Part shown: in pieces, positions 1,802-22,696 of the stretch
Numbering within the stretch: position 1 is the stretch's first letter
Layout of the letters: each line of letters opens with the position of its first letter
From: a virus
Length of the DNA stretch: 25,199 nucleotides
Direction: 5' to 3' (one strand)
Virus record (IMG/VR): IMGVR_UViG_3300008114_000300
Span: 1-25,199 of that record
The notes under the pieces: model-generated
What the model was told of the DNA's origin: nothing
Databases searched by the model: none
What the model saw: the letters and a program-made list of their open reading frames with translations, nothing else
Position numbers and translations under genes: made by a program

Positions 1802-3064
1802 TTATGTTTTAGCCGCTCCTGTGAAATATATTGAGCCAGTTAATGGTAGAGAACCAGGGTATAGTAAATTAGGTGTTATCCAAAGTACTCTATAAGTACC
1901 CGCAGGAATTGCCGCTCCTGGTGTAACAATAACATTATATGCGTTAGTAGTAGGTGTTATTGATGGTAAATCATCAAATATCTCATTACCAGAAGGTGTT
2001 GTACCCAAATCAATTTGATAATTGTTTAATGTTCCACCAATACCATTTAATGGTAACCAAATACTATAGAAATATTGAAGTGCTGAATTTACAACAGTAG
2101 ACGATACTTGAATACTACTAAACAAATATGTAGATTGATTTATTGGTGAACTAAATGTAACGGGTGTTACAAAATTACCACCTCCACTAACAAATGATGG
2201 TTGGTGAGCGTAAACATCTAAATCATTACTATAATTTCCACCACTATTGTTTGGAGGTCCACCACCACCATTATAGCTACCCCACTCAACAGCACCATTT
2301 GAACCAGCCCATGTATCTAATGTTGTGGTATCACCAGCATTAATAGGTTCCGCAAATACATACGCCAAGAATCCAGCTGATGATGGTGTAACTGTAGGTG
2401 TAATTGTTGGAGTCACACTAATAGTAGGTGTCGGTGTTATTGTTGGTGTTTGGGTATTAGTTGGTGTTTGAGTATTAGTTGGAGTAATACTTGGTGTTAT
2501 ACTAATTGTTGGAGTAATACTTGGAGTAATACTTGGTGTTACAGTATTAGTTGGTGTATTAGTCGGAGTTTGAGTTGGAGTTTTAGTTGGAGTAAGAGTT
2601 GGTGTTACCGTTGTAGTTGGTGTAATACTTGGAGTAATACTTGGTGTAACACTCGGCGTAATTGAAATTGTTGGTGTTAGTGTTGGTGTTATTGTTGGTG
2701 TTACACTAATTGTTGGTGTTGGTGTTATTGTTGGTGTTGTTGTAACAGTTGGCGTATTTGTTGGTGTTATTGTCGGTGTTGGTGTTACGGTTCTAGTTGG
2801 AGTTGGGGTTAATCCTGAACAAGCCGCAGGGTCCGAAAGTTCAACGGCAACACCATCAAACATTTGTTGTCTTGTAGCCGCAGAATATACCGCAGTAGTA
2901 CCTGTAGTTCCTGTGTAAATATCAAAAGGACCAATAGCATTGTTGGTTCCATCAAATCTAACAATAACATATTGAGTACATGCTGTAACAGTATATTGTT
3001 GGGTTACGGAGTTTAAACATCCGTCCGCTTCGTTTACTACAATAATGTCATAAGTAACTGCCAT
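1802..3064 (-). CDS. Virion/tail protein with long Thr-Pro-rich stalk
   Basis: A 420-residue protein of unrecognised family. Residues 1-84 form a small domain with two features resembling the preceding gene product: an ADGC segment and GPFDIY, compared with SPFDVY in the 115-aa protein. Residues 85-228 are a tetrapeptide-phased Thr-Pro array ([12 protein letters not shown] style), about 144 residues of proline-rich, probably extended linker. Residues 229-420 form a beta-rich C-terminal domain with Gly/Asn-rich loops and no motif I can name. A second Thr-Pro linker occurs in the 921-aa protein. Position between other surface-type proteins supports a host-contact or decoration role. Start ATG 3064 follows a 74-base gap with a TATTTATA motif. 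No signal peptide or membrane segment is seen. Confidence 0.78.
2381..2812 (-). repeat. Thr-Pro tetrapeptide-coding repeat array
   Basis: Short 12-bp-phased direct repeats on the coding strand encode T-P-(T/S)-x units, residues 85-228 of the 420-aa protein. The array also leaves a long opposite-strand reading frame rich in Ser and Trp (2450-2665), which is a shadow of the repeat and not a gene. Confidence 0.75.
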
Positions 3065-3148: not shown

Positions 3149-3486
3149 CATAAATCACAACTTGGATTTGCGGCAATGACATCAAAGGTACAACTTGATG
3201 TTGCGATGGTAATATTGTAAATACAATCAGCAGCAACAACTTGAATTGCAAATCCACAACCGTATCTACACTCAAGAATTTTAAATTTAGAACAACCATT
3301 TCCATCAACAATTGTCAACATAATTGCCGGAGCATTATCATACAAAGACGGCAAATAAAAATATTCTACAGGAGGTACTGCGGTATTAATTGTCGCAATA
3401 AAAACTTGATTGTTTCCATATACATCAGAAACATAAACATCAAATGGTGATGCCCCCGTGATTGATGAAATTTCTATTCTTGCCAT
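3139..3486 (-). CDS. Small cysteine-containing virion-associated protein (115 aa)
   Basis: An unrecognised protein. I place the start at ATG 3486 because it overlaps the upstream stop as TAATG, the same coupling used elsewhere in this cluster; a TTG at 3498 would add four residues. The N-terminal half (GASPFDVYV, then a DGNGC segment) resembles the N-terminal domain of the next gene product, suggesting a shared small beta fold. The C-terminal half has several cysteines (CRYGC, DCIYN, SSC, PSCDLC). There is no signal peptide or membrane helix. Its place between a SprB-repeat protein and a Thr-Pro stalk protein suggests an adaptor or tip component of the same structure, which is inference only. 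Confidence 0.65.
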   Translation of the reverse strand: MARIEISSITGASPFDVYVSDVYGNNQVFIATINTAVPPVEYFYLPSLYDNAPAIMLTIVDGNGCSKFKILECRYGCGFAIQVVAADCIYNITIATSSCTFDVIAANPSCDLCLS

Positions 3487-6251
3487 TAACTTACACAATT
3501 AATATCATATTGGATTATCAAGTCTATAATAACTTGTTGATTGGCAAGTTCACCATCTGTTTGTATTGTAATAACACTTGATGATGTATCAATTGTCACC
3601 GATGAAACGCCAGGAACTGTTAATAATAATGTTTCAACAGTATCATACCATTGAGTATCTGTTGGTATATCTAATAAGGTTGTACCTGTGTAGAATGATT
3701 GACTGTATGTTACGCCACTAACTTCAATTTGAGCAACAAATGTTGTGGCACTTAATAAACAATTTGTATTTCCCGAAGTTAAATCATAGTAACCATCATT
3801 TAACATTTGAAGAATACCACGTTTGGTTCCTGATGTGTATTGGAAATCACTTTCACACATTGTAAATATTTGATATGTTGTTTCAATTGGATTACAACTC
3901 ACATTTGAAGTTCTTGTTTGAGTACAACCACTTGCATCAACCAATGTTAATGTGTATGTCCCACCTGTTAAACCTGACACAGTTATTGTTTGTGGATTAC
4001 CTGAAACATTATCCGACCAAGTAAATGTAAATGGTGGTGTTCCTGATGAAATAAGGGCTGTCATTGTTCCACCCGAACCAGTTCCACAACTTGTTGGGTA
4101 TAATGAAAATAAAATTGGTGTACCCGTTACAATTGAAACTATTCCTGTTTGTATACAACCATCCGCATCTGTAACTGTGTATGTATAATCACCACCACCC
4201 AACGAACTAAATGTTGTTGCCGACAAACTTGAGTTAATTGAAACACCATTACTTAATTGATATAGATAAGGTGCGGTTCCACCTGTTGAAAGTGTGATTG
4301 TTGCTTGTCCGTTATTCATACCACAAGCGGTTGCTTCGGTACTTGTTGTTACGGTGTATTTATTTTCAGCAAAAATTGTCACATCTTGACTATAACCACA
4401 AGATGAGTTGTCAGAAACAAATACTGTATAATCACCACTTTCTAAATTTGTAAAAATATAGGTGTTTGAATTTGTTGTTATATTTGTTGACGATGAATCA
4501 GGTCTTACAATAGTATATGTAAACGGTGCGGTTCCACCTTGTATATCAATACTAATCTGTCCATCAGTTTTACTACAAAATGAATTTGTTGCGTTAATAT
4601 CAATACTACTAAATGTTCCTGGTGTTGCTAATGTAGTTCCAAAATCTACTTTACATAATGCTGCGTCAGTAACTGCAACACTAAACACACCGGCACTTAA
4701 CCCTGTAAACAAATATTGTGTTGCGTATGTTACATCAACATAACCTGTAGACGCTGAATAATAATATGGTCCTGTTCCACCTGTAATGGTGAGTAATAGT
4801 GAACCATTGGCTTCAAAACAACCAGGTGTTTGTGCACTCCAAGAACCAAGTCCTAATGATGGAACAAAGTCAACAACCGCAGTCTGTGATAAAACACAAC
4901 CATCACCTGATGTTACCGTAACTTCATATATACCTTGAGTTAAACCCGTAATTGATGTTCCCGTAGTTCCATCATTCCACAAATATGTGAAGGGTGAGTT
5001 TCCTGTAACACCTGTAACATAAACTTTACCTGTTGGGCTAGCACATTGTGTATCATTAACAATATAGAATCCATACTCTAACGTATTTGATGAATATATA
5101 ATACAAGTTTCTGTTGATGCCGAACATCCTGCAGCACTAACACCTATAACATTATAAGTTCCCGCAGATAAATTGTCAAAAATGGCTAAATCATTAGTTG
5201 TTGTCTTTGAATCCACAAGTCCATAAGAATCATATAGATAATATGTTATTTGACTATTATCACTACTTGCAGATACCGTGTATGAACCATTGTTTAATCC
5301 ACAAGTTGTATATGTTTCTGATATAAAACTTAAAGAAATTCCTGATGATACTGTGGCGTTAATATAAAATTCACTATTTACAGGTGCCGTTGAATCATTC
5401 GCTCTTATTAGATACGTTCCTGCAGATAAATTAGTTTTATATGTACCTGTTCCAAGATTTGGGTCATACCAATTGAAAGTATATGGTGGTGTTCCTCCTG
5501 TAGCAACAATTTCAATACTACCCACACCATTTTCACAAGTTCCTGTCACAAATAATTCATAACCAAATGTATTTCCATTTCCAAAACCACTAATTGTTGG
5601 TGTAATTGTTGGTGTTGGCGTAATTGTTGAAGTTACTGTTGGTGTCGGAGTTGGTGATAGTCCAATTGTTGGTGTCACAGTAGGTGTTGGAGTAATTGTG
5701 GGCGTTACAGTTGGTGTTTGAGTTTGTGTTGGTGTGGGTGTTGGAGTTACAACACAAGGTGCATATATTTCACAAGTCGCACAGCTACCCCAACCTTGGA
5801 GGTATGATGAATTAGTAGAGTAGGCGCTACCAGCATAAATGGTATTACCAGTGTAATTTGTAATTGCTGTGGTACATCCCGTAAATAATGATGTTCCACC
5901 ACTACTTATATTCCAATAAAAAATATTACCATCATAAAATAATGAATCTAATTCAAAATCACCTCTTCTTATACTAAATGTTGTGTTATCACAACAAGAT
6001 GAAAATGTATAATATAAATTATCAGGGTTTGCTGTCTGACATGCCGAGCAATTACTATACTCTTCAGTAGCATATGATTGTTTTGGTGAAGATATTGATG
6101 AACTAGTTGTGTAAACATAACAAGCACCATCACCAGAATATATGACACTACTTTGGTTATTAACCCAAGTTCCTGCAGTATCAATTTGAAATGTTTTTGT
6201 AACACCGAAACCAAATGCACAACTATAAAATAACCTATTAACTAATGCCAT
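3486..6251 (-). CDS. Large tail/adhesin-like protein with SprB-type repeats
   Basis: A 921-residue multidomain protein. Residues 1-168 are a Cys-rich module with two similar halves (CSACQTANP near 68-76, CATCEIYAPC near 157-166). Residues 169-220 are a Thr-Pro linker. Residues about 231-786 contain seven repeats of 75-80 residues with the pattern GGTxPYxYxW, LSAGTYxVxVTDxxGC (for example GNSPFTYLWNDG at 418, GTPPFTFTW at 737). This matches the SprB repeat found in Bacteroidetes surface adhesins, including the gliding adhesin SprB. Residues 790-921 form a C-terminal domain resembling the end of the upstream 985-aa protein (QWYDTVE, then YDINC). No secretion signal is present, which favours a virion protein over a secreted one. 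A likely role is binding host surface glycans or adhesins; that role is inferred. Confidence 0.82.
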   Translation of the reverse strand: MALVNRLFYSCAFGFGVTKTFQIDTAGTWVNNQSSVIYSGDGACYVYTTSSSISSPKQSYATEEYSNCSACQTANPDNLYYTFSSCCDNTTFSIRRGDFELDSLFYDGNIFYWNISSGGTSLFTGCTTAITNYTGNTIYAGSAYSTNSSYLQGWGSCATCEIYAPCVVTPTPTPTQTQTPTVTPTITPTPTVTPTIGLSPTPTPTVTSTITPTPTITPTISGFGNGNTFGYELFVTGTCENGVGSIEIVATGGTPPYTFNWYDPNLGTGTYKTNLSAGTYLIRANDSTAPVNSEFYINATVSSGISLSFISETYTTCGLNNGSYTVSASSDNSQITYYLYDSYGLVDSKTTTNDLAIFDNLSAGTYNVIGVSAAGCSASTETCIIYSSNTLEYGFYIVNDTQCASPTGKVYVTGVTGNSPFTYLWNDGTTGTSITGLTQGIYEVTVTSGDGCVLSQTAVVDFVPSLGLGSWSAQTPGCFEANGSLLLTITGGTGPYYYSASTGYVDVTYATQYLFTGLSAGVFSVAVTDAALCKVDFGTTLATPGTFSSIDINATNSFCSKTDGQISIDIQGGTAPFTYTIVRPDSSSTNITTNSNTYIFTNLESGDYTVFVSDNSSCGYSQDVTIFAENKYTVTTSTEATACGMNNGQATITLSTGGTAPYLYQLSNGVSINSSLSATTFSSLGGGDYTYTVTDADGCIQTGIVSIVTGTPILFSLYPTSCGTGSGGTMTALISSGTPPFTFTWSDNVSGNPQTITVSGLTGGTYTLTLVDASGCTQTRTSNVSCNPIETTYQIFTMCESDFQYTSGTKRGILQMLNDGYYDLTSGNTNCLLSATTFVAQIEVSGVTYSQSFYTGTTLLDIPTDTQWYDTVETLLLTVPGVSSVTIDTSSSVITIQTDGELANQQVIIDLIIQYDINCVS
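5592..5747 (-). repeat. Thr-Pro-coding linker repeat in the 921-aa gene
   Basis: Direct short repeats encode about 52 residues of TPTP/TVTPTI units (residues 169-220). At DNA level they closely resemble the larger array at 2381-2812, so the two loci share sequence usable for recombination. Confidence 0.65.
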
Positions 6252-6284: not shown

Positions 6285-9242
6285 TTACTGACAAGTGATA
6301 TCAATATTAACTCCTACGTTTATTTGTAATGTACTTACAGCGGTTGTTGTAGCACATGTTAAATTGTATACCGTTACACTATTACCATTCACAAAGAAAT
6401 AATAACCATCATTTATCAATTGTGAAAGGTTTAATATTAATGCTGATTTCCATTGACTATTACTTGGAACTTGAGATGTTCCATAACCTTCAAAGAATTT
6501 GGTATTAATCAATGTTGTTCCATCAATTTTAACATTTACATACCATTGAGAATATAATGTGTTTGTTAAACAATCAGATAATTGATAACCTTGACTATTT
6601 AAGTAAGAATATAAAACACTGTATAAAATTTCAGAGAATGAACTAACAGTTGAAGTATTGACACCAATCCAAGGATAAATTGCACATGTTGTATTCTCAG
6701 TTGTACAATCATATGAGAATAATTGACCACTCGCTAAACATGGGTCATTTGTGATAGGTATTAACTGACAACCTCTTTGTCTTCTATAAACATATTTCTG
6801 TCTTTGAAGTGATGAGTTTTCTAAACGAGTACCAGTATTCCATATTGTGGATGCTGGAATCATTTGTTGTGTCAATCTAATCCAATATGGACCAAGACCT
6901 TCAACATATTCAATTAATTTTTGATATGTGAAATTATCATTTGGTATTCCAACATTTTGTTCTGATAATAAGTAATTGTAATAAATGTTTAATAATTCAG
7001 GATATCCACTTGTTTTACCATCAGTTGAATACCATCTGTTTCTTGCATTTATTGTTGAGTTAACGTATGTTTGTGCAAATTCAAAGAATGTCTTTTTATT
7101 TGGTTCAGGATTAATAAATGTCCAATCATATGTTCCCAAACTTGGATATGTTGGTGACATACCTGAATTTGGAATTGGATAGTTATTTTCTCGTGACATC
7201 TTCCAGACATTATATAAGATACCCTGAGATGGATTCATAAATAAATCCACATTTTTGGCGTTTAACACTAACTTATCACTTGCAGCATAGTAATAAGCAT
7301 TGTATCCTGATTCTGTACTAACTCTATATGCGGGTGGTTGCCAACTCTTTTTATTATCAGGAGTTAATTTTAAATTGTAACCCAAATTCATATAAGGGAA
7401 TTTTCTAAACTTGTTAAAATATTCCTGACCATATGTAAATGGTTGTAATGTTGTTTGAACATTTGGACTATTACCCGTAAAGACTGATTGAGTTACATTT
7501 ACAACTTGCGGACTTCTATGTTGTGGTGTAGATTCAAACCAACCAGCACCTTTTTCAAAATAATAGTCATCTGTATTAACAGGTGCTTGTGGATAACCAA
7601 ATTCATCAACAGGATAATCATCCCTAACTTGGTCAACTAAAAATAATTCAGTTGTTGATGTAAATGCCGTATATTGCGTTCCGTAAATTGAGTATGTTGT
7701 ACCAGACTCATAGGTGGTTATATTTTCAACATAAGTTCCACCCGTAATTTGGGCGAACTGTTCGTTGAATTGTTTCATATTGATTCTTTGGTCAGCAACA
7801 TATACATGTTCGTTAAACTCAATCAACGCATCGGGAGCTCCAACCAATCTTAATGTAAATTCAACTGAACGTCTTGTTCCCTTTGATTTAAACAAGTATG
7901 CCGAATTAAGAATAAGATTTCTGTAAAACTGATAGTTTAATTCTGATGGTGTATATTCTCTTGAATAACCTGCGTATTGTGTTACACCCGTTGAATTATA
8001 AACTGAGTCTAAAAAGTTTTCATTTGAAATTGGTGAAATGTTTGTACTCCAACCTAATGTTTGTGCTAAGTTTTTCAACAACATTGATGGGATATCATTT
8101 CCTGGCGTATAGTTTACCGAATTCATATATGCCAACGCATCTATAAATTGTTTAATTTGGTCAAAACTTCTTCCGTAAATTTGTAATACCTTCGCAACTC
8201 GGTGGTCATCAGTATCAAACTCTAACAAAGATTCTGTAACTAAGAAACGAGCAATTAAGTTAGTTTTAAAAGCATCAAACTCAGAACCAATAACATTTAA
8301 TGTTTCCAAATAATTTGTAAAACTTTGAGTTCTAATATCTAAGTTCCATAAACCATCTTTCTGCCATGTAACATTTTTAGTTTGTACTGATGCAACTCCA
8401 TTGTCTGAATCAACAGGAACATTAAATGTCGCAGTATAAATTGGAAGAACCAATCTGTTTAATAAAAATTGTTCTACTTGGTCAAAATCTTCAGAAAACG
8501 CTTTTTCAACGTAATAATCATTTGGTCTAATAACCAATGACTTGTATGTTGAAACGTCTCCACTAAATGGATTGCCAATAACAATAACTTTTATGGTTCC
8601 ACTATACAAACTTGATGATGACGTAAAATCAATAATTTGATAAAGGTTTTCATCAACAGATAAACTATAATCTCTATATCTATTTGTTAAATCTCTTAAT
8701 GGTGAAAACTCTTGCTCTCTGTTTTGTAGATTAATTGCTGAATTAACAGAATAGTCAATTGAAAATGGATTTTTAATTCTTGCAACATCAATTGTTAATT
8801 CAGTTTCATTAGCAACTGAATCATAAACAATATCATACGCAGTCTCACCTGATGTGAAGTCATAATACAACGCATCAATTTCAATAGCCGCTGGAAAAAA
8901 ATTAAGTATTCTTTGAACCGATACTTCAAATCTTTTTTGTAATGAACCAAAGATTGTAAAGTTGGTTACTTGTGATAAATCATAATTTGGATAAACCCTA
9001 TATTCTTTAGCAATTAATTCTCTTGAAGCATTAACAGAATCTAAATTTAAATCTTCTAATGAAACTGGTGATTGAAATACACCAATATTAAAATTACGAT
9101 TTGATTTTTCAGATATTCCTTGAGTAAATTCAAAGTTACCTTGTGTAAGTCCACCACCTTGCACAGTTTGTAACCCTACGATATTATCAAAGGGTGTACC
9201 TGCTCCTGATGCCGCTGTATTTGGTATGAACTTTTTAGCCAT
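6285..9242 (-). CDS. Large baseplate/tail structural protein (985 aa)
   Basis: The family is not named with confidence. Around residues 440-470 the motif YRNLILNSAYLFKSKGTRRS followed by LRLVGAP is seen. It resembles the segment 'YKNLLKN..YLLKSKGT..S....LR.FG.P' that I associate with tail proteins of marine and Bacteroidetes phages. Residues 1-430 are mixed alpha/beta with many aromatic residues. The last roughly 115 residues (QWYVNVKIDG, SNSQWKSAL, VNIDITC) resemble the C-terminus of the next protein. ATG 9242 overlaps the upstream stop as TAATG, so translation is probably coupled. It sits between the baseplate genes and the adhesin-like genes, so it may connect baseplate and fibres; the size is similar to T4 gp7, but I see no motif proving that identity. 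Confidence 0.75.
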   Translation of the reverse strand: MAKKFIPNTAASGAGTPFDNIVGLQTVQGGGLTQGNFEFTQGISEKSNRNFNIGVFQSPVSLEDLNLDSVNASRELIAKEYRVYPNYDLSQVTNFTIFGSLQKRFEVSVQRILNFFPAAIEIDALYYDFTSGETAYDIVYDSVANETELTIDVARIKNPFSIDYSVNSAINLQNREQEFSPLRDLTNRYRDYSLSVDENLYQIIDFTSSSSLYSGTIKVIVIGNPFSGDVSTYKSLVIRPNDYYVEKAFSEDFDQVEQFLLNRLVLPIYTATFNVPVDSDNGVASVQTKNVTWQKDGLWNLDIRTQSFTNYLETLNVIGSEFDAFKTNLIARFLVTESLLEFDTDDHRVAKVLQIYGRSFDQIKQFIDALAYMNSVNYTPGNDIPSMLLKNLAQTLGWSTNISPISNENFLDSVYNSTGVTQYAGYSREYTPSELNYQFYRNLILNSAYLFKSKGTRRSVEFTLRLVGAPDALIEFNEHVYVADQRINMKQFNEQFAQITGGTYVENITTYESGTTYSIYGTQYTAFTSTTELFLVDQVRDDYPVDEFGYPQAPVNTDDYYFEKGAGWFESTPQHRSPQVVNVTQSVFTGNSPNVQTTLQPFTYGQEYFNKFRKFPYMNLGYNLKLTPDNKKSWQPPAYRVSTESGYNAYYYAASDKLVLNAKNVDLFMNPSQGILYNVWKMSRENNYPIPNSGMSPTYPSLGTYDWTFINPEPNKKTFFEFAQTYVNSTINARNRWYSTDGKTSGYPELLNIYYNYLLSEQNVGIPNDNFTYQKLIEYVEGLGPYWIRLTQQMIPASTIWNTGTRLENSSLQRQKYVYRRQRGCQLIPITNDPCLASGQLFSYDCTTENTTCAIYPWIGVNTSTVSSFSEILYSVLYSYLNSQGYQLSDCLTNTLYSQWYVNVKIDGTTLINTKFFEGYGTSQVPSNSQWKSALILNLSQLINDGYYFFVNGNSVTVYNLTCATTTAVSTLQINVGVNIDITCQ

Positions 9243-10150
9243 TATTGTGCTGTGATATTTTGATAGCTTTTACTGAAATCAATATTAGTACCTCTGTTAT
9301 CTTTAACCTCATATAACAAGTTATTAAAGTCATCCTTGATTTCATACAAGTTATACTGTTGGTAAATGTTATTTTGTGCGTCATAGATAGTGTATATACC
9401 ATCTTCCATAGATTTAGTTTGATTACCGTAAAGGGCAATACCCAATGTATCAATATCATACTGCGAAACTTGAACTTCTAAAGTCAAAGGATTAAAATAT
9501 GTGTTTGATAAAATAATACTTTGTGCTGGTTGTCCAATGTACGGAGTTGCATTTGGTTTGTTTGTTGGTGATGAACTTGGTGATAAAGTACAAAATACCA
9601 AATTAGTTTGACCTTCTGTATATCTATATCTAACAGCCTTTTGTACTGTGTTAGTTAAGTTTTGAATAACTGGTTCACAATAAAAGTTTGATGTTATAAT
9701 TCTAAAAAAGTTAGGTATTTTACTACCATCAGCATTTAAATATTCAACTCTAAAACCAACAAGTCCTTGGGCAACAAATTTGTTGACATATTGGCTTGGC
9801 ACATTACTTAAATCAATAACAATACCTTTTACGTTTGGAAGTGCAGATAAAACACCACAATCAGTAATTGTTGTTCTTATTTCAGCGGGTCTAATATACA
9901 ATGTGTATATACCAATTTGAGTAAACACATCAGCAGGTAATCTTAAATTATAAAGACCACCCAATATTTCGTTTGTATTTCCACCAGTACTTGCGTTATT
10001 AAAGTATGGTCTCAATATTGCCGCAGCGTCAAGACTAGTTAACAGAAAGTCATCCGTTACATCTCTTGATGGTGTGTAATTCATTATGATGCTCACGTCT
10101 TCGGGTGATACATCTGCCGGTCTTATTGTTCCGTATGTTCCTGTTGCCAT
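9242..10150 (-). CDS. Virion structural protein, unknown (302 aa)
   Basis: I do not recognise this family. The protein begins MATGTYGTIRPADVSPEDVS and is rich in beta-prone and aromatic residues, with no Cys cluster, signal peptide or membrane segment. A charged C-terminal part (KDDFNNLLYEVKDNRG) ends the chain. It is set between two structural genes: one base separates its ATG from the upstream TAA (10152), and its own stop overlaps the downstream ATG as TAATG. This packing implies co-translation with the 359- and 985-aa proteins, so it is probably a component of the same baseplate or tail assembly. Confidence 0.7.
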   Translation of the reverse strand: MATGTYGTIRPADVSPEDVSIIMNYTPSRDVTDDFLLTSLDAAAILRPYFNNASTGGNTNEILGGLYNLRLPADVFTQIGIYTLYIRPAEIRTTITDCGVLSALPNVKGIVIDLSNVPSQYVNKFVAQGLVGFRVEYLNADGSKIPNFFRIITSNFYCEPVIQNLTNTVQKAVRYRYTEGQTNLVFCTLSPSSSPTNKPNATPYIGQPAQSIILSNTYFNPLTLEVQVSQYDIDTLGIALYGNQTKSMEDGIYTIYDAQNNIYQQYNLYEIKDDFNNLLYEVKDNRGTNIDFSKSYQNITAQ

Positions 10151-10151: not shown

Positions 10152-11231
10152 TTATGTTACATTAAAAAATCTATATCCATATTTTATTAGGTCTCCGAGA
10201 TTGTCCACTTCGCCTATCCTTTGTACCCTTTCAAGTGCGGAGTTTTTGCCTCTTTCAATAAATACATTAGATTGTACTTCTGGTTGAGAAATTATTCCTA
10301 AAAGTAATTCATCTTTTACAATTGGTTCTTGAACCATCCAATCTGCGGTTAATCCTGATGATTGTGTAAAGTATATTGTTGTTCCATCAGAATAATCATA
10401 GTAATCAATATCTTGAATTGTATATGCTGTGTAAACCAAATTAATTTCTGTTATGATACCATAATCAACATTATTTTTTTGAACAGGTACTAATAATTGA
10501 AATTTGTTTTGTCCGTATTGTGCAAGGTCATTAATCCTTGAATCAGTATATCCACTAATTGTAAATGGTACAGTTACGTAATCAGATGATACTTGAGCAT
10601 CAACTAAATTAACACTATCCCCCGTAAAAATATAATCATAGGATATTGGTGTTGCACTCCATGAACCAGTATTTGGTGTAAAGTATGCAGTTCCACTTGA
10701 ATTAAAATCAGGAACTTCAACATATGGTGTTTTAATATTTTTTGATACCTTTGTATTACCCCAAGGACTATTTTGTGATAAGGTAATTGTATAACCACTT
10801 GGGTTAGAATTATAAGTGTGTACCAAAGAATTTGGTGTGTATGCCGTTACGGGTATAACAGGACTTCCATCACCCCAATCTAAATAATATTGTGAGAGTT
10901 CCAGATAGGCATTAAATTCCACATCAGCAGTATTATAAACATTCCAAGTAAATGGGTTTCCTGTCGTGGATGAAAATATAAAATTGTTTACAACATTAAT
11001 CTGTGAAATGGCACCATCAAATACTGAATAGTATCCCATGTCCACAGTATTCTGTAATAACAAAATTGGAACGGTTAAACCTGTTAACGTTGACGTATTG
11101 TTTGTACCACCCGTCAATGTTTCAGTCATAGATGAATAAACACCAAATGTTTCACCTGAATAAGTTACATCATGTATAATTGTTTTTAATACTTCAGGGG
11201 ATACCCTAACGTACATTGTTTGTGATTCCAT
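10152..11231 (-). CDS. Structural protein with PKD-like domain (359 aa)
   Basis: Residues about 95-155 contain a PKD/Ig-like signature: YYLDWGDGSP at 115-124, HTY at 138-140 and SGYTITL at 145-151, the usual WGDGS...H.Y...Y.ITL pattern. PKD domains are beta-sandwiches common in Bacteroidetes surface proteins and seen in phage structural proteins. The C-terminal segment (VFIERGKNSALERVQRIGEV, then DLIKYGYRFFN) is charged and looks like a conserved attachment region; I recall similar tails in other uncultured phage virion proteins but cannot name a family. ATG 11231 overlaps the upstream stop as TAATG. A role in the baseplate or tail periphery is inferred from context. Confidence 0.75.
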   Translation of the reverse strand: MESQTMYVRVSPEVLKTIIHDVTYSGETFGVYSSMTETLTGGTNNTSTLTGLTVPILLLQNTVDMGYYSVFDGAISQINVVNNFIFSSTTGNPFTWNVYNTADVEFNAYLELSQYYLDWGDGSPVIPVTAYTPNSLVHTYNSNPSGYTITLSQNSPWGNTKVSKNIKTPYVEVPDFNSSGTAYFTPNTGSWSATPISYDYIFTGDSVNLVDAQVSSDYVTVPFTISGYTDSRINDLAQYGQNKFQLLVPVQKNNVDYGIITEINLVYTAYTIQDIDYYDYSDGTTIYFTQSSGLTADWMVQEPIVKDELLLGIISQPEVQSNVFIERGKNSALERVQRIGEVDNLGDLIKYGYRFFNVT

Positions 11232-12004
11232 TATGGGTTTGTATATTCATACCATTTTATGGGATTACTTACGGTTCCCGTTCTGTTTCCTGTTGGATAA
11301 TTAAATACCTGATATGTTTGTGTTAAATAATCCAAATCAACTTTATAATAGAAATAACTTTCAGGTGGAAAGTCATACATATTTGGTAATAAGTTTTGTT
11401 GGGTATTCATCATTTTAATGAATTGACCCGTACTACCATCAAAGAATTTGGCTGTCATATAAAATGTGTTGATGTTTAAAAAACCCCTACCCTTTAACCA
11501 ATAAAGGAAGAAACCTTCTTTATCACCAATATAATCCAAAACATATTTTGGTTTTCTAATTGTAACTGGTGTTGTATTGTTTAACACCGTGGCTTGAGTT
11601 AATCCTTGTTGAACGGGAAGTATTACCGTAAAATAAGATTTTTGTGTTCTTGGTGTTGGACTATCATAAAAATCTATTTTCCAAAAAGATTTATCAAATG
11701 GTGGTTCAAAGTAATATATTTGATTTGTTGAGAATTTTGCTTGGTACGAATTTAACCATTGTTGTGAATCTTCTTCATACAAGTAAAAATCATAATTGAT
11801 TGATGTCTTTGTTACATCATAAGTTTGGTGGTCAAATCTTGTAACCTCAAAGTCATCATTTGGGTTAAGAATTTTTTCCAACACATCTTCCTCGTATTTT
11901 TCAAGGTCCAATTGTTGTCCATACATATCCCAAGATTGCTCCAAAGGAATGTTCAAAAATTTTGTTTGATTATCAAACAGTATTCTTACTTTATTCGCAT
12001 CCAT
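11231..12004 (-). CDS. Virion structural protein, unknown (257 aa)
   Basis: Unrecognised. It is very rich in Tyr and Phe (for example NYDFYLYEED, ESYFYYKVDLDYL) and has no Cys, membrane helix or signal peptide, as expected for a soluble beta-rich structural protein. The gene starts 14 bases inside the end of the 564-aa gene in another frame and its stop overlaps the next start as TAATG, so it is embedded in the coupled cluster. It may be a baseplate wedge or tail accessory subunit. Confidence 0.7.
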   Translation of the reverse strand: MDANKVRILFDNQTKFLNIPLEQSWDMYGQQLDLEKYEEDVLEKILNPNDDFEVTRFDHQTYDVTKTSINYDFYLYEEDSQQWLNSYQAKFSTNQIYYFEPPFDKSFWKIDFYDSPTPRTQKSYFTVILPVQQGLTQATVLNNTTPVTIRKPKYVLDYIGDKEGFFLYWLKGRGFLNINTFYMTAKFFDGSTGQFIKMMNTQQNLLPNMYDFPPESYFYYKVDLDYLTQTYQVFNYPTGNRTGTVSNPIKWYEYTNP

Positions 12005-13685
12005 CTATGATTGGGTCTGGGACTACTTGGTACAATTCTGTTATGTCAAATGACGCACCTTCAGGGTATAATCTAAAAGGTATATTTTGGAATGGGTAAT
12101 GAGCATTATTTAAATATGGAAATTCAACACCCCTACCTAAATTATCAACATAACCATATGTGTAAATATCTCTCCATAACCATAATTTGTTATTGTTACT
12201 GAAATAAGCATAGTTTGGAATATCTTCAATTCCAACTGGTTGAGCGGTTTCAACATAATCTGAAAATACTCTTAATGTTATTGGATTATGAACTTGATAA
12301 TAAAAACCACTTGTGTTTGTGCTAGCAGTTGATGGTATTGTAAATGCCTTTTGATTATAAGTTATCTTGTTCATATATTCAGAGATAACCCTTTCGGTTT
12401 GTTCAAAATCATTCCACTCACACCAATCACCATACATCGTATCACCACTATATCTTGGTAGGTTAACTGTAAAATCATATGTTACACCATTTTGTGTTTT
12501 GGTATAACCTGATGTAAGATTATCTTCGGTTGATAATGGATTTGTTGTATCCCACCAAGGATTTGTTTCATTTGGTGTCATATTCATTTTCCAACCACGT
12601 CTTAATCTATTAAACCAACCAAAGTACCCAACATTTTGGAATGTTGCAAATATTTGTGTTAAAGGTTTCTTGTTGTTGTCTAATTGAGTTAATAATTCAA
12701 AGTCACGAGCAAATGTTGTATTGTACGTGTTTGAACTTTGGTAGTTAGCAATTCTACTAACTTTGTTTGGTGTTAATGATGAGAACTGATACATCGCACC
12801 ATCATCAAATGGGTTTAACTCAAAACCATTTCTTGTAATAATTGAATCGTGAGGATTTGTTATAATCTTATGTTTTCTAACATAATACCTTGACATTGTT
12901 TCCCCTGAGTTATTAATATCGGCAATTCTTTTAAACACACCTGTAACACCCGCAGCAAATGTACTACCTGTGTATCCAACATTATTTAAATTGAATATGT
13001 AGGCATCTGAACCAATTGTGTTGTTTCCCAAACTACTAACTTGGAATAAATTCATGTCATCATAATTAAATGATAATTGAACGTATTGACCTATAGTTAA
13101 TCCGTGTGTAACAGGACACACAAATTGTATGATTGGCATTCCATTATCAGAACCTGTTGTAATCTTAAATGGTATTCCATCACCTGACACCCAAGCTGGA
13201 AGTGATGTTCCATTTTGATAATAATACTGCATCTGAACATTGTAGTCATTTTCATATGGATATGATAAAACAATATTCCAATTGTATGTTGAACTACTTT
13301 TGGTAACAAAATCTAATTGTAATGAATCAATATCAGTTCTAATAAATTCAAATTCTTGGAACGATGGTAATCCACTCCATATACCATTGATAATTGAAAC
13401 TTCAGGATTTACATAAAATAAACTATCTCTAAAAATAGTATAATCGGTATGACCAACCAAATTGTTTTCATAGATATAAGAAATTTTAATTGTTGGTCTG
13501 AATGTTGTCGCCTTTTGTCTTTCAGCATCAAACAATGTTGCCAAGTTAACAGATACAGTTCTATCATATTCAATAACTTGAGATTGAGTTTGATTAATAC
13601 CAACCTGAAGAGTTATATCTGCCTCAGGAGCTGACTTAAACTTTAAATCAGGTTTAACTACTATGAAATCTGTTTCTTGACTCAT
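11991..13685 (-). CDS. Virion structural protein, unknown (564 aa)
   Basis: No family recognised. The N-terminus (VVKPDLKFKSAPEADITLQV) leads into a beta-rich, aromatic and Asn-rich chain. Trp clusters such as NPWWDTTNP, YGDWCEWNDF and KLWLWRDIYTYGY occur in the second half. There is no membrane segment. ATG 13685 overlaps the stop of the 537-aa gene as ATGA, and its own end overlaps the 257-aa gene by 14 bases. Context places it in the baseplate/tail assembly, and length and composition suit a structural subunit rather than an enzyme. Confidence 0.72.
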   Translation of the reverse strand: MSQETDFIVVKPDLKFKSAPEADITLQVGINQTQSQVIEYDRTVSVNLATLFDAERQKATTFRPTIKISYIYENNLVGHTDYTIFRDSLFYVNPEVSIINGIWSGLPSFQEFEFIRTDIDSLQLDFVTKSSSTYNWNIVLSYPYENDYNVQMQYYYQNGTSLPAWVSGDGIPFKITTGSDNGMPIIQFVCPVTHGLTIGQYVQLSFNYDDMNLFQVSSLGNNTIGSDAYIFNLNNVGYTGSTFAAGVTGVFKRIADINNSGETMSRYYVRKHKIITNPHDSIITRNGFELNPFDDGAMYQFSSLTPNKVSRIANYQSSNTYNTTFARDFELLTQLDNNKKPLTQIFATFQNVGYFGWFNRLRRGWKMNMTPNETNPWWDTTNPLSTEDNLTSGYTKTQNGVTYDFTVNLPRYSGDTMYGDWCEWNDFEQTERVISEYMNKITYNQKAFTIPSTASTNTSGFYYQVHNPITLRVFSDYVETAQPVGIEDIPNYAYFSNNNKLWLWRDIYTYGYVDNLGRGVEFPYLNNAHYPFQNIPFRLYPEGASFDITELYQVVPDPIIDGCE

Positions 13686-15295
13686 TCTGATATTCCAATA
13701 TAAAGTTGTGTAAATTTATCCATTGCAGATGCACCTTTCTTTAATCCAAAATAAAAGTACCAAGGAGCACTTGTTAATGTTGTCTGATTTAATGTACCAG
13801 GAAGAATTACAGGTTCGTTTCCACCCTGAGCGTTTCTTTGGAAAATATATCCTGTACGGTTTTGAATGTATTGGTTTCCACCGATAAACATAGGTGCGTT
13901 TAATCTATCAATACTTTGGTATTTTTGTTTGTAAGCCGAATATGTAAATTTAGAACTAGACCAAGTGTTTTCTTGATTACCAAATATTGACGGTTGTGAT
14001 GGACTACCCCAACCATTGTTGTACCAAGTATAAAATGGAACCTCTTGTGATTTGGTTCCTAAGTAGTCAGCTATTAATGTACTACCCGTTAAGTTTCTAT
14101 TCAATCTCCTCGGTGATATCAAATCTCTTTCTTGTGTGAATCCACTATAGAACACACCAAATACAGGATTACCTTTGGAATCACCATCAACGTAAATTGG
14201 ATTGTCTGAAGTAGTATTTGGGTCGTCAACATAATTCTCAGCAGTAAATGGTACTATACCATATTGAGAGTTGATTTGTAACATCTGAGCATAATCACCA
14301 TCAACCCTATCTTCGTTTCTACTAAATAAAGAAGCCACAGAACCATTACTAACACCAAAAATTTGACTTAAGTAATTTGAATTTACTAATCTTGATATAA
14401 CAAATAATTGTAATAAGTCTTTTTCACTACTCCAACTTGTTGCCGTTAGATTGTCCATTTGATATCCATAGTAATCAGGTGATAAGTTAACATCTTTAGT
14501 CCAAATGTATTTTGGTCCTAAGTCAAGAATTGTTGTTGGAAACAAGAAATCTTTTTTATTAACATCATTACTATTGTTTGTTGGTGAATCTTTACCAATA
14601 AAATCACTTCCATTCCAAGGACTTGAACGGTAGTAATAGTTACTTGACTCGGGGTCAAAAACTAAAACATCAGCACAGAAAGTATAATTAACATTACCAT
14701 TGAGTGGATTAACACTTCTGACATATGGTTTATTATTGGAATCAAAGAATACGTTGTTTTCAAATGGGAACGCAAATAAAGTTCCATTAACCCAAGCATT
14801 TACAAATGTATGTGATAAGGCACCTCTACAAATAGCAAATGTTAGTCTAAATCTTGATACCCATTGGGCTATCAATGTAAAGTCATTATTTCTACCAAAC
14901 AAAGAAACTAATGGTTTATTGACAATACTATAACAACCATTAACTACTACAGGTCCACCAAGATTTGTATTACAGTCATTTGTTGCCGGTAATACGGTAA
15001 AGTTGGTACCAATACCTTGATAACAATTTAAGTCAACCATACCAGCACAAGAGAACGACTCTAATACCTTATTCATTGTTCCACCTGTAACAACATCAGC
15101 CCCACCTGTTGCATCACCAAAAGAAAAACTTGGTACAGGAACTACGGTTTCAGCACTTCCACTATCACTATAAAAATTATATGTTAAACTATTTGATGCT
15201 TGCCAAGCAAATGCGTTATTGTCTACGGTATTTAATACGGTACCTGTTGGTAATCTGTCCGCTCTCATAACCATTCGGTTACTATAAACAACCAT
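13682..15295 (-). CDS. Virion structural protein, unknown (537 aa; start uncertain)
   Basis: Unrecognised family; beta-rich with Asn/Ser-rich loops and scattered Cys. The first ATG is at 15295 (MVVYSNRMVMRADRLPTG), but the same frame is open for 22 further codons up to a TAA at 15362-15364. That upstream segment reads like natural protein (KPQYYYAPSWARYSPGK) yet has no ATG, GTG or TTG. The real N-terminus may therefore be longer, through a non-standard start, a -1 frameshift from the 1016-aa gene (whose stop is at 15346-15348), or a base error. There is no good ribosome-binding site before ATG 15295. The stop overlaps the next ATG as ATGA. A role in the baseplate/tail is inferred from neighbours. 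Confidence 0.72.
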   Translation of the reverse strand: MVVYSNRMVMRADRLPTGTVLNTVDNNAFAWQASNSLTYNFYSDSGSAETVVPVPSFSFGDATGGADVVTGGTMNKVLESFSCAGMVDLNCYQGIGTNFTVLPATNDCNTNLGGPVVVNGCYSIVNKPLVSLFGRNNDFTLIAQWVSRFRLTFAICRGALSHTFVNAWVNGTLFAFPFENNVFFDSNNKPYVRSVNPLNGNVNYTFCADVLVFDPESSNYYYRSSPWNGSDFIGKDSPTNNSNDVNKKDFLFPTTILDLGPKYIWTKDVNLSPDYYGYQMDNLTATSWSSEKDLLQLFVISRLVNSNYLSQIFGVSNGSVASLFSRNEDRVDGDYAQMLQINSQYGIVPFTAENYVDDPNTTSDNPIYVDGDSKGNPVFGVFYSGFTQERDLISPRRLNRNLTGSTLIADYLGTKSQEVPFYTWYNNGWGSPSQPSIFGNQENTWSSSKFTYSAYKQKYQSIDRLNAPMFIGGNQYIQNRTGYIFQRNAQGGNEPVILPGTLNQTTLTSAPWYFYFGLKKGASAMDKFTQLYIGISE

Positions 15296-15345: not shown

Positions 15346-18300
15346 TTAAATTATTATTCCATTATAAGCAATTCCTGAGGGAGTATTACTATAACCCAAT
15401 AATTGACCTTGGGTTCCAGCATTAACCATACCATTATTACCACTAGTCAATAAACTATTACCATTACTTGTTGTTGGTAAGTAATTATTAATTTGTGATG
15501 TGTCTAACGCTGAATAATAAGATTGTAAAGTTGTTGTATATGCCGAATATTGTGTTCCTGCAGTATACTGATAAGATGGGTAATAAAGATATTGACCATT
15601 TTGATTATCAGTATTTGCAGTTAATAAATTATGTCGTACAGTTTTAAGACCTGGTTGAACGGGTATATTTAAAAAGAATTCTCCTTCAACAATTTTATTA
15701 CCATAGGTATTATATCCAAAAATTCTTGATAAATCATACTTAATTTTCTTTCTTCCACTTTGTGGGTCAACACCTCTAACCATAAAGATTAGATTAAGAT
15801 TACCACCAACCCATTGACCAAGATAATTTGAATAGGTGTCTTCACCTTCTTTACCATCTTGACGGTATAATTTAATTTGTTGTTGTAATTGTTTTAATAA
15901 ACTAGTTGATAATGTATTTGAATTTTGACTTATAAAGTCATTATAAGTTAATCCTGTGATTACTTGAAAATATTCTATATCTGTCGGAAATCTATATTCT
16001 TTAGTAGTACCAGTTGTTGAACCTGATAAACTATAAGTTACCGTTTGTAGGTTTGTTGAATTTGATGGGTTGGCGTAATTTACCACAATACTACCACCAA
16101 TATTTGTAGTACCTGTAATACCTGTTGAATCTCCTGTTGTATAAGCAGAAAAGTTTGGGTCTTTTGATAAGTTTGGTTGTGAAAAAGAAATTAACTTACC
16201 TGATGGGAAATAACTTTCAGTATTTGGGTCAACAAAAACCGCCATGATATTATCAAAGTGGTTTTTTGTCGGGTTAATTCCTGGCTCAATTTGAACTTTA
16301 ATTCTGTTTGAACCAGCATACCTATCAGTATCAAAGTACTTTGACTTTAAGTTAAATTTATTAATAACTTCCCATGGTGGTAAATTGTCAATAAAGTCAT
16401 AATCATTTTTATCTACGTTTCTAATTGGTGTTCTAATTGCCCAATTGTCATTAGCTTGTCCAGCAAAAACTTCTTTATGTTCATTAATTTCAACACCCCA
16501 ATTTGATATTGTAAAAAAATCAGCATTTAAAGATGTTGAGTTTTGTTGTGACGCATTTTTAACTAATGATGCTTGTTCGTTATCCGCTGGTACAGATTCT
16601 GGTGTACAATCACAAGCCTGACAATCAGGATAACTTAAATTTGGTAATGTTATTTTAACAAATGGATTACCTAACACATCAAATATATCACTAAAACTTT
16701 TTGACTCAGGACAATCTAAATCTGCACCTAACCAATTAATAAATTTACAAATACCAGAAATTATTAATAATAATGAACCATATATAAAAGCAATTAATGG
16801 TTTTAGTATTTCCCAAACAATAGATAATACGTGTAGTATTGGTGTCAATACTATTAAAAATATTGAGTTTAATGGTAGTATTACATTATTAACTAAGAAC
16901 ACAAAGAAATCAAAATTCCTAACACCATCTGTTGCGGGAAATCTATTGTTTTCACTAGCACATGATGGGTCCGTGATTTCTTTAATACCAATAAATTTAG
17001 ACCTATTAGTTCCTTTTTTATATTGGTCAATAAGTCCGGCAACGGTATATACTTTATTATATTGAAACTCATAAAAAGTATCCTTACATTCAATGGCGTC
17101 TTGTGGATTAGTGTATCCACTCCAATCAAGTCCAAAATAATATGAACCTAACACTTGTTTATATGGTGTACCTAAAACATTTACAGAATAATATGGGTCT
17201 GACGTTGAATTAGTCCAACCATATTCTTTAATGTTTGGAACCAAGAAATAACCTCTTCTAATTTCATTGGTTTCAAAATTAGCAGGTTGAGCATATTTTA
17301 TTTTAAATCTATATTTTCCTTTTGTTGGAATACCAATGCTTGGGTCTTTACTAAAAATTGTTTCCCCGAATTCATTTGTTGTCACATAGTCCAAGTTCAT
17401 TGGAACTTCCATTAACCAAGTACCATCGGCATCAATAACTTTACCACCTCTTGGTAATGTTGCCCTTTCTAAGATTGGTTTTCCATCAGTATCTTGATAG
17501 ATTGTTTGTCTAATACCAATAATTTCACCAGGTCCTGTTTGTAGATTACAAAGGTTACCCATGTCTCTAGGTGGTTTACAATTTTTGGTAATTGATTCAT
17601 CATTAATTCCCGTCACCAAAGAACCCATGAATATGGATGTTGGTTTAATTTCAATACCCTCTTTTCTTAAATCAAAATCATGTCGTGCAATACTAACCTG
17701 ACAAATCTCAGGTTGACCCCAAAATGGTTCAACATTTACTGTTTGATTAATGTTAACAATCTGTGGTAATTCAAATAAATTTGTTGAGCTCTTAAAAGTA
17801 CCACCATCAATTTGGTCGGCAGTTGCTCTACCCATTCTAACTAAATCTTGTGGTGATAAAGAAAAAGGACCGATATCAGATAAGTCCATATCCATAACCA
17901 AAGTATAAGTTCCAATTGGAACCCCCATAATCATATAATCACCACTACCATTTGTTTTGACGGTGAATTTATAATACTTGTCGTAAACTTCAATTAAGGC
18001 TGGATTTGTAAGTACATCTTCTCTTGTTGGAAAAGTTCCTGTTGGGACGTGTCCTGTATGTTGTTGTACGTATGGTAATAAGTTATATCTATAACCATCA
18101 TCGTTAACATCTGTATTAACATTTCTATAAGGATAAAGAGATGAAATAATTTCATCATTGGCATCATCATCGGTTAATGGTATGAATACAGATAATCTAA
18201 CATTTGGAACACCATAACCACCATTGGCAACAACACGACCAACTACAACACCATAATCGGCACACATTCTTGTATAAATTTCTTCAGACCTAACTTTCAG

Positions 18301-20183: not shown

Positions 20184-20645
20184 TTAAATATTCAGGATTA
20201 CGAAATCTTTAGTGTTAAATACATCATTTGAAATGGCATAATCAATTCTTACAGTAGCGGTATATTCAGTCACGTTTTGATTTGTCATTTGTATTTGGGG
20301 GTCAGTAACACCACCTGTTGAAGTTGCTGTTAATCCTGCAGCTTCACCTGTTGGAGCACTAATGTTAATATTTGTTAATTGTAATTGAGGCATGTACTTT
20401 TGTACAGAATCTCTTATTTCAGATTCAATATTTTTAAATGTTGGTCCATCCAAAGGTTCAAAAATGTATTCCAACAATCCAGTACCAAAATCAGGTAAAA
20501 AATATCTACTACCTTTTCTTGTTAATAACAAGTGAATTAAATTACTTCGGATTTCCTCAGCAGAGTAATCCGACAAATCCAAATACTTACCGTTGAAAGA
20601 AGTTACAAAGGGGAAGGTTAACCCATATGTTTTACCATTAGCCAT
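20184..20645 (-). CDS. 25: Baseplate wedge protein gp25-like
   Basis: A 153-residue protein with the GPW/gp25 family motif at residues 39-64: LLLTRKGSRYFLPDFGTG followed by YIFEP. T4 gp25 is 132 residues and is a core baseplate wedge/sheath initiator subunit conserved in all contractile systems. The N-terminus (TYGLTFPFVTSFNGKYLDL) matches the usual short lead-in. It is directly followed by the gp6-like gene with a 5-base gap. ATG 20645 overlaps the end of the small DUF5522-like gene by 8 bases, and a TATTTATA motif lies 4 bases upstream. The assignment is confident. Confidence 0.93.
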   Translation of the reverse strand: MANGKTYGLTFPFVTSFNGKYLDLSDYSAEEIRSNLIHLLLTRKGSRYFLPDFGTGLLEYIFEPLDGPTFKNIESEIRDSVQKYMPQLQLTNINISAPTGEAAGLTATSTGGVTDPQIQMTNQNVTEYTATVRIDYAISNDVFNTKDFVILNI

Positions 20646-20850
20646 TATCTATAAATATAGTTGTATTTCCTTTTTTGTATTTAGGAAAATAAGGACAATG
20701 TCTACAACCATTACCGCAACAAGAACCTCTTTGTTTATGAAATTCCTCAGTAAAGACATATTTTCCTTCTTCAATATAAAAAGAAGAAGGGGAAAGTTGT
20801 TCACTCCCCCCCTCCGTAGGTGTTTTTATATTCTCTTTATTTGATTTCAC
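20638..20850 (-). CDS. Small cysteine-rich DUF5522-like protein
   Basis: The C-terminal core YVFTEEFHKQRGSCCGNGCR followed by HCPYFPKY matches the DUF5522 family signature (VxTexYHxxrGxCCGxxCxHCPY), a small bacterial protein common in Bacteroidetes whose clustered Cys and His suggest metal binding; its function is unknown. The start is uncertain. I chose GTG at 20850 because it limits overlap with the reductase gene to 14 bases and has GGAG three bases upstream; GTG at 20880 would add ten residues. No ATG is available. A terminator-like hairpin lies inside the coding region (20789-20811). It may be a host-derived cargo gene between nucleotide metabolism and structural genes. Confidence 0.65.
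   Translation of the reverse strand: MKSNKENIKTPTEGGSEQLSPSSFYIEEGKYVFTEEFHKQRGSCCGNGCRHCPYFPKYKKGNTTIFIDNG
20650..20657 (-). promoter_or_regulatory. Candidate promoter/leader motif TATTTATA before gp25-like
   Basis: TATTTATA on the coding strand is 4 bases upstream of ATG 20645 and lies inside the 3' end of the DUF5522-like gene. It marks the border between the metabolic genes and the structural cassette. The very short distance to the ATG means a transcript from it would be leaderless or would start at a later codon, so it may instead be an A/U-rich initiation signal. Confidence 0.28.
20776..20811 (-). terminator. Rho-independent terminator-like hairpin after the ribonucleotide reductase
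   Basis: In minus-strand RNA an 8-bp stem GGGGGGAG / CUUUCCCC (two G-U pairs) closes a 7-base loop (20797-20803), followed by a U-rich run UUCUUCUUUUU. Stem pairing works only on the minus strand; on the plus strand two A-C mismatches break it. It sits 26 bases past the reductase stop at 20837 and could end or attenuate early transcription before the structural cassette. It lies within the DUF5522-like frame, so partial read-through is expected. Confidence 0.5.
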
Positions 20851-22696
20851 AAGCTCCACCAGCACAAGCCAATTCACCACTCAAATCTGTGTTGTCTTGT
20901 AATTCAACAACTTTTGATAAATCAATTGTGTGTAGTTTAGCGAACAATCTGTCGTATTCTTCTTTTGTACAATCCTCAAATGGTGCTTGAATGTAACTTC
21001 CACCATCATAAGGTAATACAGATAAACCATTGTAGAAGTCACGGTTTTCCCACATCCACTCACCTGCCAATTCCCAATCTTCATTTTTTAAACTGATTGT
21101 TGCAGATACGTTGTGTGTGTTTGAACCAGTTCTGTGACCAGGTCTTACCCACTCTTGTGTAATTTTCTTAACACGGTCCAACAATTGGAATGGAGATTCT
21201 GTTCTCAAAATTGCTCCTTCAGGAGATTTTTGTGGAACTGAAATAACTGCCGTGTCGTGTGGACGGAAGAATTCATCTTCAACCAACTCAGGATGATACA
21301 TTGCCAAGTATTGGTAGATTGCTTCATTCTTACCAACACGGACTCTACGGATGTAGTAATCATTGTGCCATGCGTGGATACCTGAAGATGTTCCCAATGT
21401 CAGAGATGTTGTCCCTGCAGGTTTTACAGTAGTTGTACGAGCCGACTTGTTAACACCAATCAACTCAGCAACTCTTGCGTTTTCTTCTTTTACAAGTTTC
21501 GCAGCTTCTTTCATGTTATAACCCAATACAACACCTGAACCGATACCTGTCATAGATACACCAATCAATGCTTCTTTTTCAGTTGTACGTTTCCATACAT
21601 CTCTCAAGTAATGGAAATCAGTATAACCCGCTTGAAGTGTTCCAATGAAAGCCGCCGCTTTAACACGATTATTCAAGTCCTCTTGTGATTCAATGTCAGA
21701 AACATTTACCTCACACAAGTTACAGAATTGGTTTGGTCTCAAAGCGATTTCACAACATGGATTAGTTCCCCAATCTTTATCATTTGTAAAGTAGATACCA
21801 GGTTCACCTGCTCCTGACGCTTCAACTCTTTTCCACAAGTCCATAAAGAAATCTTTTGTAATCTTGTGTCTAACCAAAGCCGCTGAATTGTTAGCTCTAC
21901 CTCTTTGTGGATTTGTTTCCCACCAAGCACCTGACTTACAAGCAATCATCTCGTTGTCATCAGCCGAGAACAATGAAATCAAAGCCGCTCTACGAATACC
22001 ACCAGCAAGAACTGCGTCTGCAATGTGACATATCATATCGTGAACCTCAATTGATGATAATCTTTCACCATCTTCTTTCGCGTCCAACATACCTTTCAAT
22101 TTGTGGATACAATCTTTCAATGGTTGAGGACCTGGTGCTTTACCACCTGATGTTACAAGTTGAGCTCCTTTTGGTCTAACATCTGAAAAATCAAACTCAG
22201 GTGTTGACAAATGCTCACCAAAGTAAGATTTCATTAACACTTTAATTGCATCAGCCCAACCTTCAATTGAATCACCAACCAAGAATCTTCTTGTTCTATT
22301 TGGGTTTGGTTTTCTAATTTCAGGTAATTTTTCTACGTGATGTTTTTGAACTGAATACCCTACTCCAGTTCCACCCAATAACAAGAACATTGTTTCTGAG
22401 AATGCGTCCAAGTGGTCAATAGGAAGGTAAGCACAGTTGTAGATTCTGTTTGGAGAAATCTCAATTGGTTTACCACCAAATTGCATTGACCTCATTGAAG
22501 GTAATACTTTTTTAGTATACACATAATGATACACGTCCACAATCTCACTTGCGATGTGGGGGTATTTCTTAATGTGCATATTCATGTTTCTTGTTACAAG
22601 CTCTTCCCAAGTTTCTCTTCTTTCCAACTCAGGAATAAATTTTGAATACTTCATGTGAACCGTTAGGTCCGACAATATCTTTTGTGATGCGTCCAT
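20837..22696 (-). CDS. nrdJ: Adenosylcobalamin-dependent (class II) ribonucleoside-triphosphate reductase
   Basis: A 619-residue enzyme reducing ribonucleoside triphosphates to deoxy forms for phage DNA synthesis, using coenzyme B12 and no oxygen. The active-site loop NPCCEI gives N312, thiyl Cys C314 and E316; the buried redox pair is probably C88 (IYNCAY) and C325 (QFCNL). The C-terminal CAGGAC (C611, C616), ending CEIK, is the external shuttle pair typical of the monomeric RTPR type. Other family segments are LLLGGTGVGYSVQ at 105-117 and TTVKPAGTTSLTLG at 422-435. The Lactobacillus RTPR is 739 residues, so this one is compact, probably lacking part of the insert or allosteric region. It follows the helicase by 26 bases. 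The call is confident; thioredoxin partner and B12 supply are not in the window. Confidence 0.93.
   Translation of the reverse strand: MDASQKILSDLTVHMKYSKFIPELERRETWEELVTRNMNMHIKKYPHIASEIVDVYHYVYTKKVLPSMRSMQFGGKPIEISPNRIYNCAYLPIDHLDAFSETMFLLLGGTGVGYSVQKHHVEKLPEIRKPNPNRTRRFLVGDSIEGWADAIKVLMKSYFGEHLSTPEFDFSDVRPKGAQLVTSGGKAPGPQPLKDCIHKLKGMLDAKEDGERLSSIEVHDMICHIADAVLAGGIRRAALISLFSADDNEMIACKSGAWWETNPQRGRANNSAALVRHKITKDFFMDLWKRVEASGAGEPGIYFTNDKDWGTNPCCEIALRPNQFCNLCEVNVSDIESQEDLNNRVKAAAFIGTLQAGYTDFHYLRDVWKRTTEKEALIGVSMTGIGSGVVLGYNMKEAAKLVKEENARVAELIGVNKSARTTTVKPAGTTSLTLGTSSGIHAWHNDYYIRRVRVGKNEAIYQYLAMYHPELVEDEFFRPHDTAVISVPQKSPEGAILRTESPFQLLDRVKKITQEWVRPGHRTGSNTHNVSATISLKNEDWELAGEWMWENRDFYNGLSVLPYDGGSYIQAPFEDCTKEEYDRLFAKLHTIDLSKVVELQDNTDLSGELACAGGACEIK

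Follow-up and report, generated by a model that had tools for sequence, protein, structure and literature searches.

Uncultured T4-like phages encode a family of large proteins in which two sets of beta-rich, soluble domains appear to be linked through a single, strongly hydrophobic alpha-helix, some 40–60 residues long. We read it, with a confidence just short of even, as a wedge-associated baseplate protein that would be carried in the virion and whose helix would contact and enter the host membrane. This oily helix may be how the phages grip or breach that membrane. As long as the baseplate is closed, contacts among the helices or with adjoining subunits would keep them covered. Opening of the baseplate at the cell surface would let them enter the host membrane or lie across it, which would anchor the baseplate and possibly help the tube to cross. 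One member of the family is encoded on the minus strand of the window, that is, the whole stretch of 25,199 nucleotides of an IMG/VR virus record (IMGVR_UViG_3300008114_000300) that was analysed (Table 1).

Translation of the hydrophobic segment in the window gives 62 stop-free residues, in the frame and at the place where an earlier sequence-only reading had put a membrane-like region inside a baseplate-region protein. It is the most hydrophobic stretch of the 15 window ORFs tested and holds two non-overlapping 19-mers above a Kyte-Doolittle (KD) mean of 1.6, one starting at residue 512 (mean 2.23) and one at residue 535 (mean 2.14), while no 19-mer reaching 1.6 was found in the other 14 ORFs. 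The earlier reading counted two or three hydrophobic stretches; the strong hydrophobicity was borne out, and a single long helix is the prediction that describes the region better. The cysteine cluster (DCQACDC) that it noticed after the segment is indeed present, at residues 591–597. Within the family the window copy is among the weaker ones, with +0.09 on a biological hydrophobicity scale.

Table 1. Features of the window discussed in the text (residue numbers refer to the large ORF).
Feature	Position	Strand	Remark
Large ORF, 1016 aa	15346..18396	-	shortened window copy of a 1590–1591-aa baseplate-region protein
Hydrophobic segment, residues 495–556	16729..16914	-	predicted single helix 497–555
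Cys479	16960..16962	-	invariant (119/119); N-terminal side of helix
CxxCxC, residues 592–597	16606..16623	-	C-terminal side of helix; C592 and C595 in 119/119, C597 in 116/119
Beta-sandwich fold region, residues 43–250	17647..18270	-	transthyretin/Cna-B/CarboxypepD_reg-like; best VIA Z 7.2, middling
Junction without 70 bp	15358..15359	none	70 bp present in close relatives; reading frame broken
537-aa ORF	13682..15295	-	in intact relatives the C-terminal part of the large-protein gene
gp6-like baseplate wedge gene, 569 aa	18469..20178	-	phrog_219, E 1.6e-12
gp25-like baseplate wedge gene	20184..20645	-	PF04965, E 3.4e-12
Conserved neighbour p564	11991..13685	-	44/44 loci with room
Conserved neighbour p257	11231..12004	-	44/44 loci with room
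Conserved neighbour p359	10152..11231	-	44/44 loci with room
Conserved neighbour p302	9242..10150	-	34/44 loci with room
985-aa protein	6285..9242	-	domain common to the large gp6-adjoining protein of immuto, Mel-JY01 and LR756508

The ORF of 1016 residues from which the sequence-only reading started is present as given, but the whole protein is longer: the relatives L002 and L003 (99% and 98% identical) encode 1591 residues and L004 encodes 1590, and intact family proteins span about 1585–2190 residues. At 15358/15359, 70 bp that L002, L003 and L007 have are missing from the window (about the same compared with L004 and L005), and since this gap breaks the frame, the 537-aa ORF that follows is the remainder of the large-protein gene. 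A second gap, of 132 bp at 19086/19087, lies in the gp6-like gene of the window with respect to all five relatives compared (L002, L003, L004, L005 and L007), and it preserves the frame. Both window-specific gaps, seen in a single record, are either real deletions or an assembly artefact. Split ORFs were also observed in L086, L110 and L132, each at a different position, the break of L132 falling inside the hydrophobic segment.

The family is large. Patterns taken from the window sequence led to 126 tblastn-confirmed relatives in IMG/VR, a profile to at least 561, and a search starting from another member to at least 597. The sample studied here comprises 284 loci with a family ORF, which yielded 205 distinct proteins (190 of them non-nested), and an alignment of 119 diverse family proteins (A3). 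No match to the family was found by tblastn with three family queries in 50,697 records of named phages, and in one scan of GTDB genomes none of 109 candidate stretches was confirmed. PHROGs gave no match for the large protein; Pfam gave only CarboxypepD_reg (PF13620) at residues 142–168, with 17.3 bits, below the cut-off of 32.3; and when the A3 profile was run against PDB sequences, gp7 among them, there was no match up to E 1. No title describing the large protein was found in the literature covered, which excludes subscription journals. One UniProt relative came from the structure search, the uncharacterised A0A8S5LA66 from Myoviridae sp. ctPuP5. With a Foldseek E of 4.2e-43 and 34% identity over 553 columns it is a clear relative of the large protein in sequence and structure.

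Homologues without the segment, which would have spoken against the sequence-only reading, were looked for among the 190 non-nested proteins and none was found: 187 have a 19-mer with a mean KD of at least 2.0 within residues 421–760, and the three exceptions either end at contig edges (L079 and L150) or are frame-broken inside the segment (L132). Over the 119 aligned proteins the best 19-mer ranges from 2.16 to 3.74 (median 2.75), and the mean KD of residues 497–535 ranges from 1.57 to 2.95 (median 2.23), exceeding 1.6 in all but one of them (118/119). Mean pairwise identity in the same residues is only 29%, compared with 61% for residues 1–480. Hydrophobicity is thus kept while the sequence drifts, which looks like selection for a property, namely the hydrophobicity of the segment. 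Acidic residues are nearly excluded from residues 497–535 (no Asp or Glu in 99 of the 119 proteins, a single one in 20), His522 is kept in 111/119, and a proline occurs at positions 500–534 in 107/119; internal prolines are often seen in helices that span membranes but seldom in long helices of soluble proteins. On the same biological hydrophobicity scale, 112/119 contain a 19–23-mer below 0 kcal/mol. The segment varies widely in length, being about 40 residues in some members and extended in others. Elsewhere in the protein a TM-like 19-mer is absent from 153 of the 176 members anchored by motif search, with one such 19-mer in 21, two in one and three in one. In the 80 of 140.6 kb surveyed in a long relative (G003), the family protein is the only one of 54 ORFs with such a stretch (a count that includes two pieces of a tape-measure-like ORF). 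That tape-measure-like ORF, named by look and position with no informative family match, peaks at a 19-mer KD of 1.76.

The predicted shape is a single helix. AlphaFold2 was run with 119 sequences on a monomer of residues 1–760 (mean pLDDT 78.8, pTM 0.56), and this second model shows one continuous helix at residues 497–555, with a block pLDDT of about 80–86 from residue 501 on. The first model, made from 32 sequences (mean pLDDT 53.6), shows the same helix and was too poor for a fold search. AlphaFold2 without partners or lipid may over-extend helices. Additionally, the family-mean hydrophobicity over residues 497–556 peaks at 100 degrees per residue (a period of 3.60), none of 5000 permutations being as strong, and the phases along the segment are coherent (65, 58, 37 and 56 degrees). 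Both models and the coherent 3.6-residue periodicity thus suggest a single helix along which a stripe of lower hydrophobicity runs. Separate transmembrane spans connected by turns, the topology suggested by the sequence-only reading, are therefore disfavoured. As caveats to the single helix, the window's own clade (3/119) has a one-residue insertion at position 503, and gaps occupy 12–34% of columns 536–556 compared with 1–3% of columns 531–535. Cys479 and the CxxCxC motif bracket the helix, whose base may therefore be closed by a metal site or by disulfides; Cys283 and Cys437 are invariant as well (119/119). Among the PDB matches listed for the second model, only single beta-sandwich domains were found.

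The gene neighbourhood points to the baseplate. Synteny was counted over 144 loci, and for each gene only those with enough flanking DNA were scored. The gp6-like gene adjoins the family gene upstream in 114/114 loci with room, the gp25-like gene is found upstream in 106/106, and p564, p257 and p359 lie downstream in every locus with room, so that the order gp25–gp6–family gene–p564–p257–p359 is invariant. A gene for a contractile sheath is present in all five long relatives (four of them over the cut-off) and a gp23-type capsid gene in two of the five. In G003 (42811–46002) and four other long records the sheath-like ORFs have open frames of 1066–1271 aa, compared with 659 aa in T4 gp18, and the G003 tail module contains two ORFs of 2229 and 1619 aa (26644–33330 and 33643–38499) without a PHROG match. 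The gp6 of the window is most similar to those of Flavobacterium phage immuto, Microcystis phage Mel-JY01 and LR756508, and beside gp6 in these three no family homologue is detectable. Orthology with the large protein that adjoins gp6 in them was considered and rejected; that protein matches the 985-aa protein of the window instead (hhalign Prob 83, E 8.9e-6) and contains no hydrophobic stretch. Since the phages with the closest gp6 lack a detectable homologue beside it, the family gene was probably added behind gp6, or replaced another gene there, in this lineage specifically, and its function would not be a general one.

Other genes of the window bear on the host. The 921-aa Thr-Pro-rich protein has six SprB-repeat matches in Pfam, and these, together with the gp6 similarity to a Flavobacterium phage, suggest that the hosts of the family phages are likely Bacteroidota, as judged from sequence. 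Large proteins with Thr-Pro-rich repeats are encoded at 3486–6251 and 1802–3064, and an antisense Pro/Val/Glu-rich ORF lies at 290–1123. The protein encoded at 20837–22696, next to gp25, looks ribonucleotide reductase-like from its sequence; of 73 loci with room, only 26 have a relative of it at that place.

The obvious protein for comparison is T4 gp7 (gene 7, L289 7061–10159), of 1032 aa. Its gene follows gene 6 immediately, its annotation reads 'C-terminus is predicted integral membrane domain', and its sequence is present in solved baseplate entries. Its TM-like segment lies at about residues 880–905 (19-mer KD 2.07) and is kept in a second solved gp7 sequence. Both proteins are large, are encoded directly downstream of gene 6 and have a TM-like hydrophobic 19-mer, but the gp7 segment is short and near the C-terminus, whereas the family segment has 40–60 residues, lies mid-protein and is flanked by invariant cysteines. 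No sequence homology was detected, neither by hmmsearch with the family HMM (E 1.6) nor by hhalign of a single gp7 against family alignment A1 (Prob 0.4, E 0.15); the large protein was therefore not classed as gp7, and it may be a working counterpart of it. The 50 listed Foldseek/VIA-align matches, which cover mainly residues 43–455, do not include gp7. The best 19-mer of every family protein (119/119) exceeds that of gp7, which is the highest of 24 T4 proteins, and the best 39-mer has a median KD of 2.34 and a minimum of 1.46, compared with at most 1.31 in the same 24. T4 gp7 is not known to be a membrane protein or to insert into membranes; hydrophobicity alone is thus no proof of insertion.

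Hydrophobic segments of this kind have been described in other tails. In phi29 the L-loops of the tail knob protein gp9 contain a hydrophobic helical segment that is reported to exit and form a helix barrel for membrane penetration (PMC6542822). The family protein resembles gp9 as described there in having such a segment inside a soluble tail protein; phi29, on the other hand, has a short non-contractile tail and a different protein, and the exit and the barrel are those reported for gp9. For T5 pb2, a hydrophobic stretch of 46 residues has been proposed to form a channel by inserting in the outer membrane (PMC10038345); pb2 is a siphophage tape-measure protein, whereas the family gene sits in a baseplate-wedge neighbourhood. 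The trait shared with gp9 and pb2, a membrane-length hydrophobic helical segment in an otherwise soluble protein, was found conserved throughout the family. In the thylakoid-anchored contractile injection system (CIS), Cis13 is a component of a contractile machine with a membrane helix or anchor (PMC8894136). Unlike the large phage protein, Cis13 is fibre-like, and its machine is encoded by the host and anchored in a membrane.

A helix that never meets lipid is the foremost competing explanation, one to which we give appreciable weight though clearly less than an even chance: the segment would be a buried hydrophobic trunk of the wedge, packing on its own copies or on gp6 helices, like the gp7 segment. 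T4 gp7 occupies the same slot, is about as long as the window ORF and has the strongest TM-like 19-mer of the T4 proteins compared, and the single continuous helix of both models, with its less hydrophobic stripe at helix periodicity, would suit such packing; that gp7 is not known to insert into membranes keeps this alternative at the weight given here. However, the large protein shows no sequence similarity to gp7, its hydrophobic stretch surpasses all those of the T4 proteins in both length and hydrophobicity and varies in length, this stretch is nearly free of acidic residues and often contains proline, and among the 15 window ORFs tested no neighbour has a matching hydrophobic helix against which it could pack. 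An assembly anchor, a helix that goes into the host inner membrane as the protein is made and so directs baseplate assembly to that membrane, with no role as an infection device, seems improbable. The insertion-like hydrophobicity of 112/119 members on the biological scale agrees with it, and Cis13 in the thylakoid-anchored CIS offers a precedent (PMC8894136), but a protein fixed in the membrane would have to be pulled out again for the virion to leave, and the widely varying segment lengths fit no fixed topology. Still less probable, and very much so, is a non-virion protein encoded within the structural operon, for instance a phage-encoded envelope modifier: the size of 1590–1900 aa and the beta-sandwich domains would suit a surface protein, and no virion proteomics of family phages was found in the literature covered (subscription journals lying outside it), but the gene order is invariant at all loci with room.

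The membrane-contacting baseplate helix thus remains the preferred reading. One point against it is the length of the predicted helix, which at about 88 Å exceeds what one simple passage through a membrane would take. T4 stoichiometry gives six wedge copies, and six helices would form a bore too small for DNA, so that a DNA channel is doubtful and is the least supported part of the sequence-only reading, which had proposed a hidden transmembrane core released on sheath contraction to breach the host membrane or form such a channel. Other elements of that reading fared better: the segment is real and universal in intact members, its hydrophobicity is retained and the gene lies by gp25 and gp6 in contractile-tailed phages. 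Membrane action is plausible, and a multi-span topology is disfavoured. A more elaborate version, which we regard as unlikely, makes the wedge rather than the tape measure the membrane-entry device: the helices would form a ring, oily on the outside and with the stripe of polar or small residues (H522, periodic N/S/T, K/R and G) within, latched at its base by Cys479/592/595(/597) and released at opening; it would hold the tail in place and form a lining or a seal for the tube where it passes the membrane.

How contractile-tailed phages cross the cytoplasmic membrane is poorly resolved, and the search for candidate segments has mostly turned to the tape measure or the hub. In the widespread group of uncultured phages described here, a protein of the wedge operon, left unnamed by the Pfam and PHROGs scans, contains a hydrophobic helix that is universal and apparently under selection. 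If this helix stays out of lipid, it would be an unusually hydrophobic buried trunk; if it enters lipid, the baseplate itself would be a membrane-active part.
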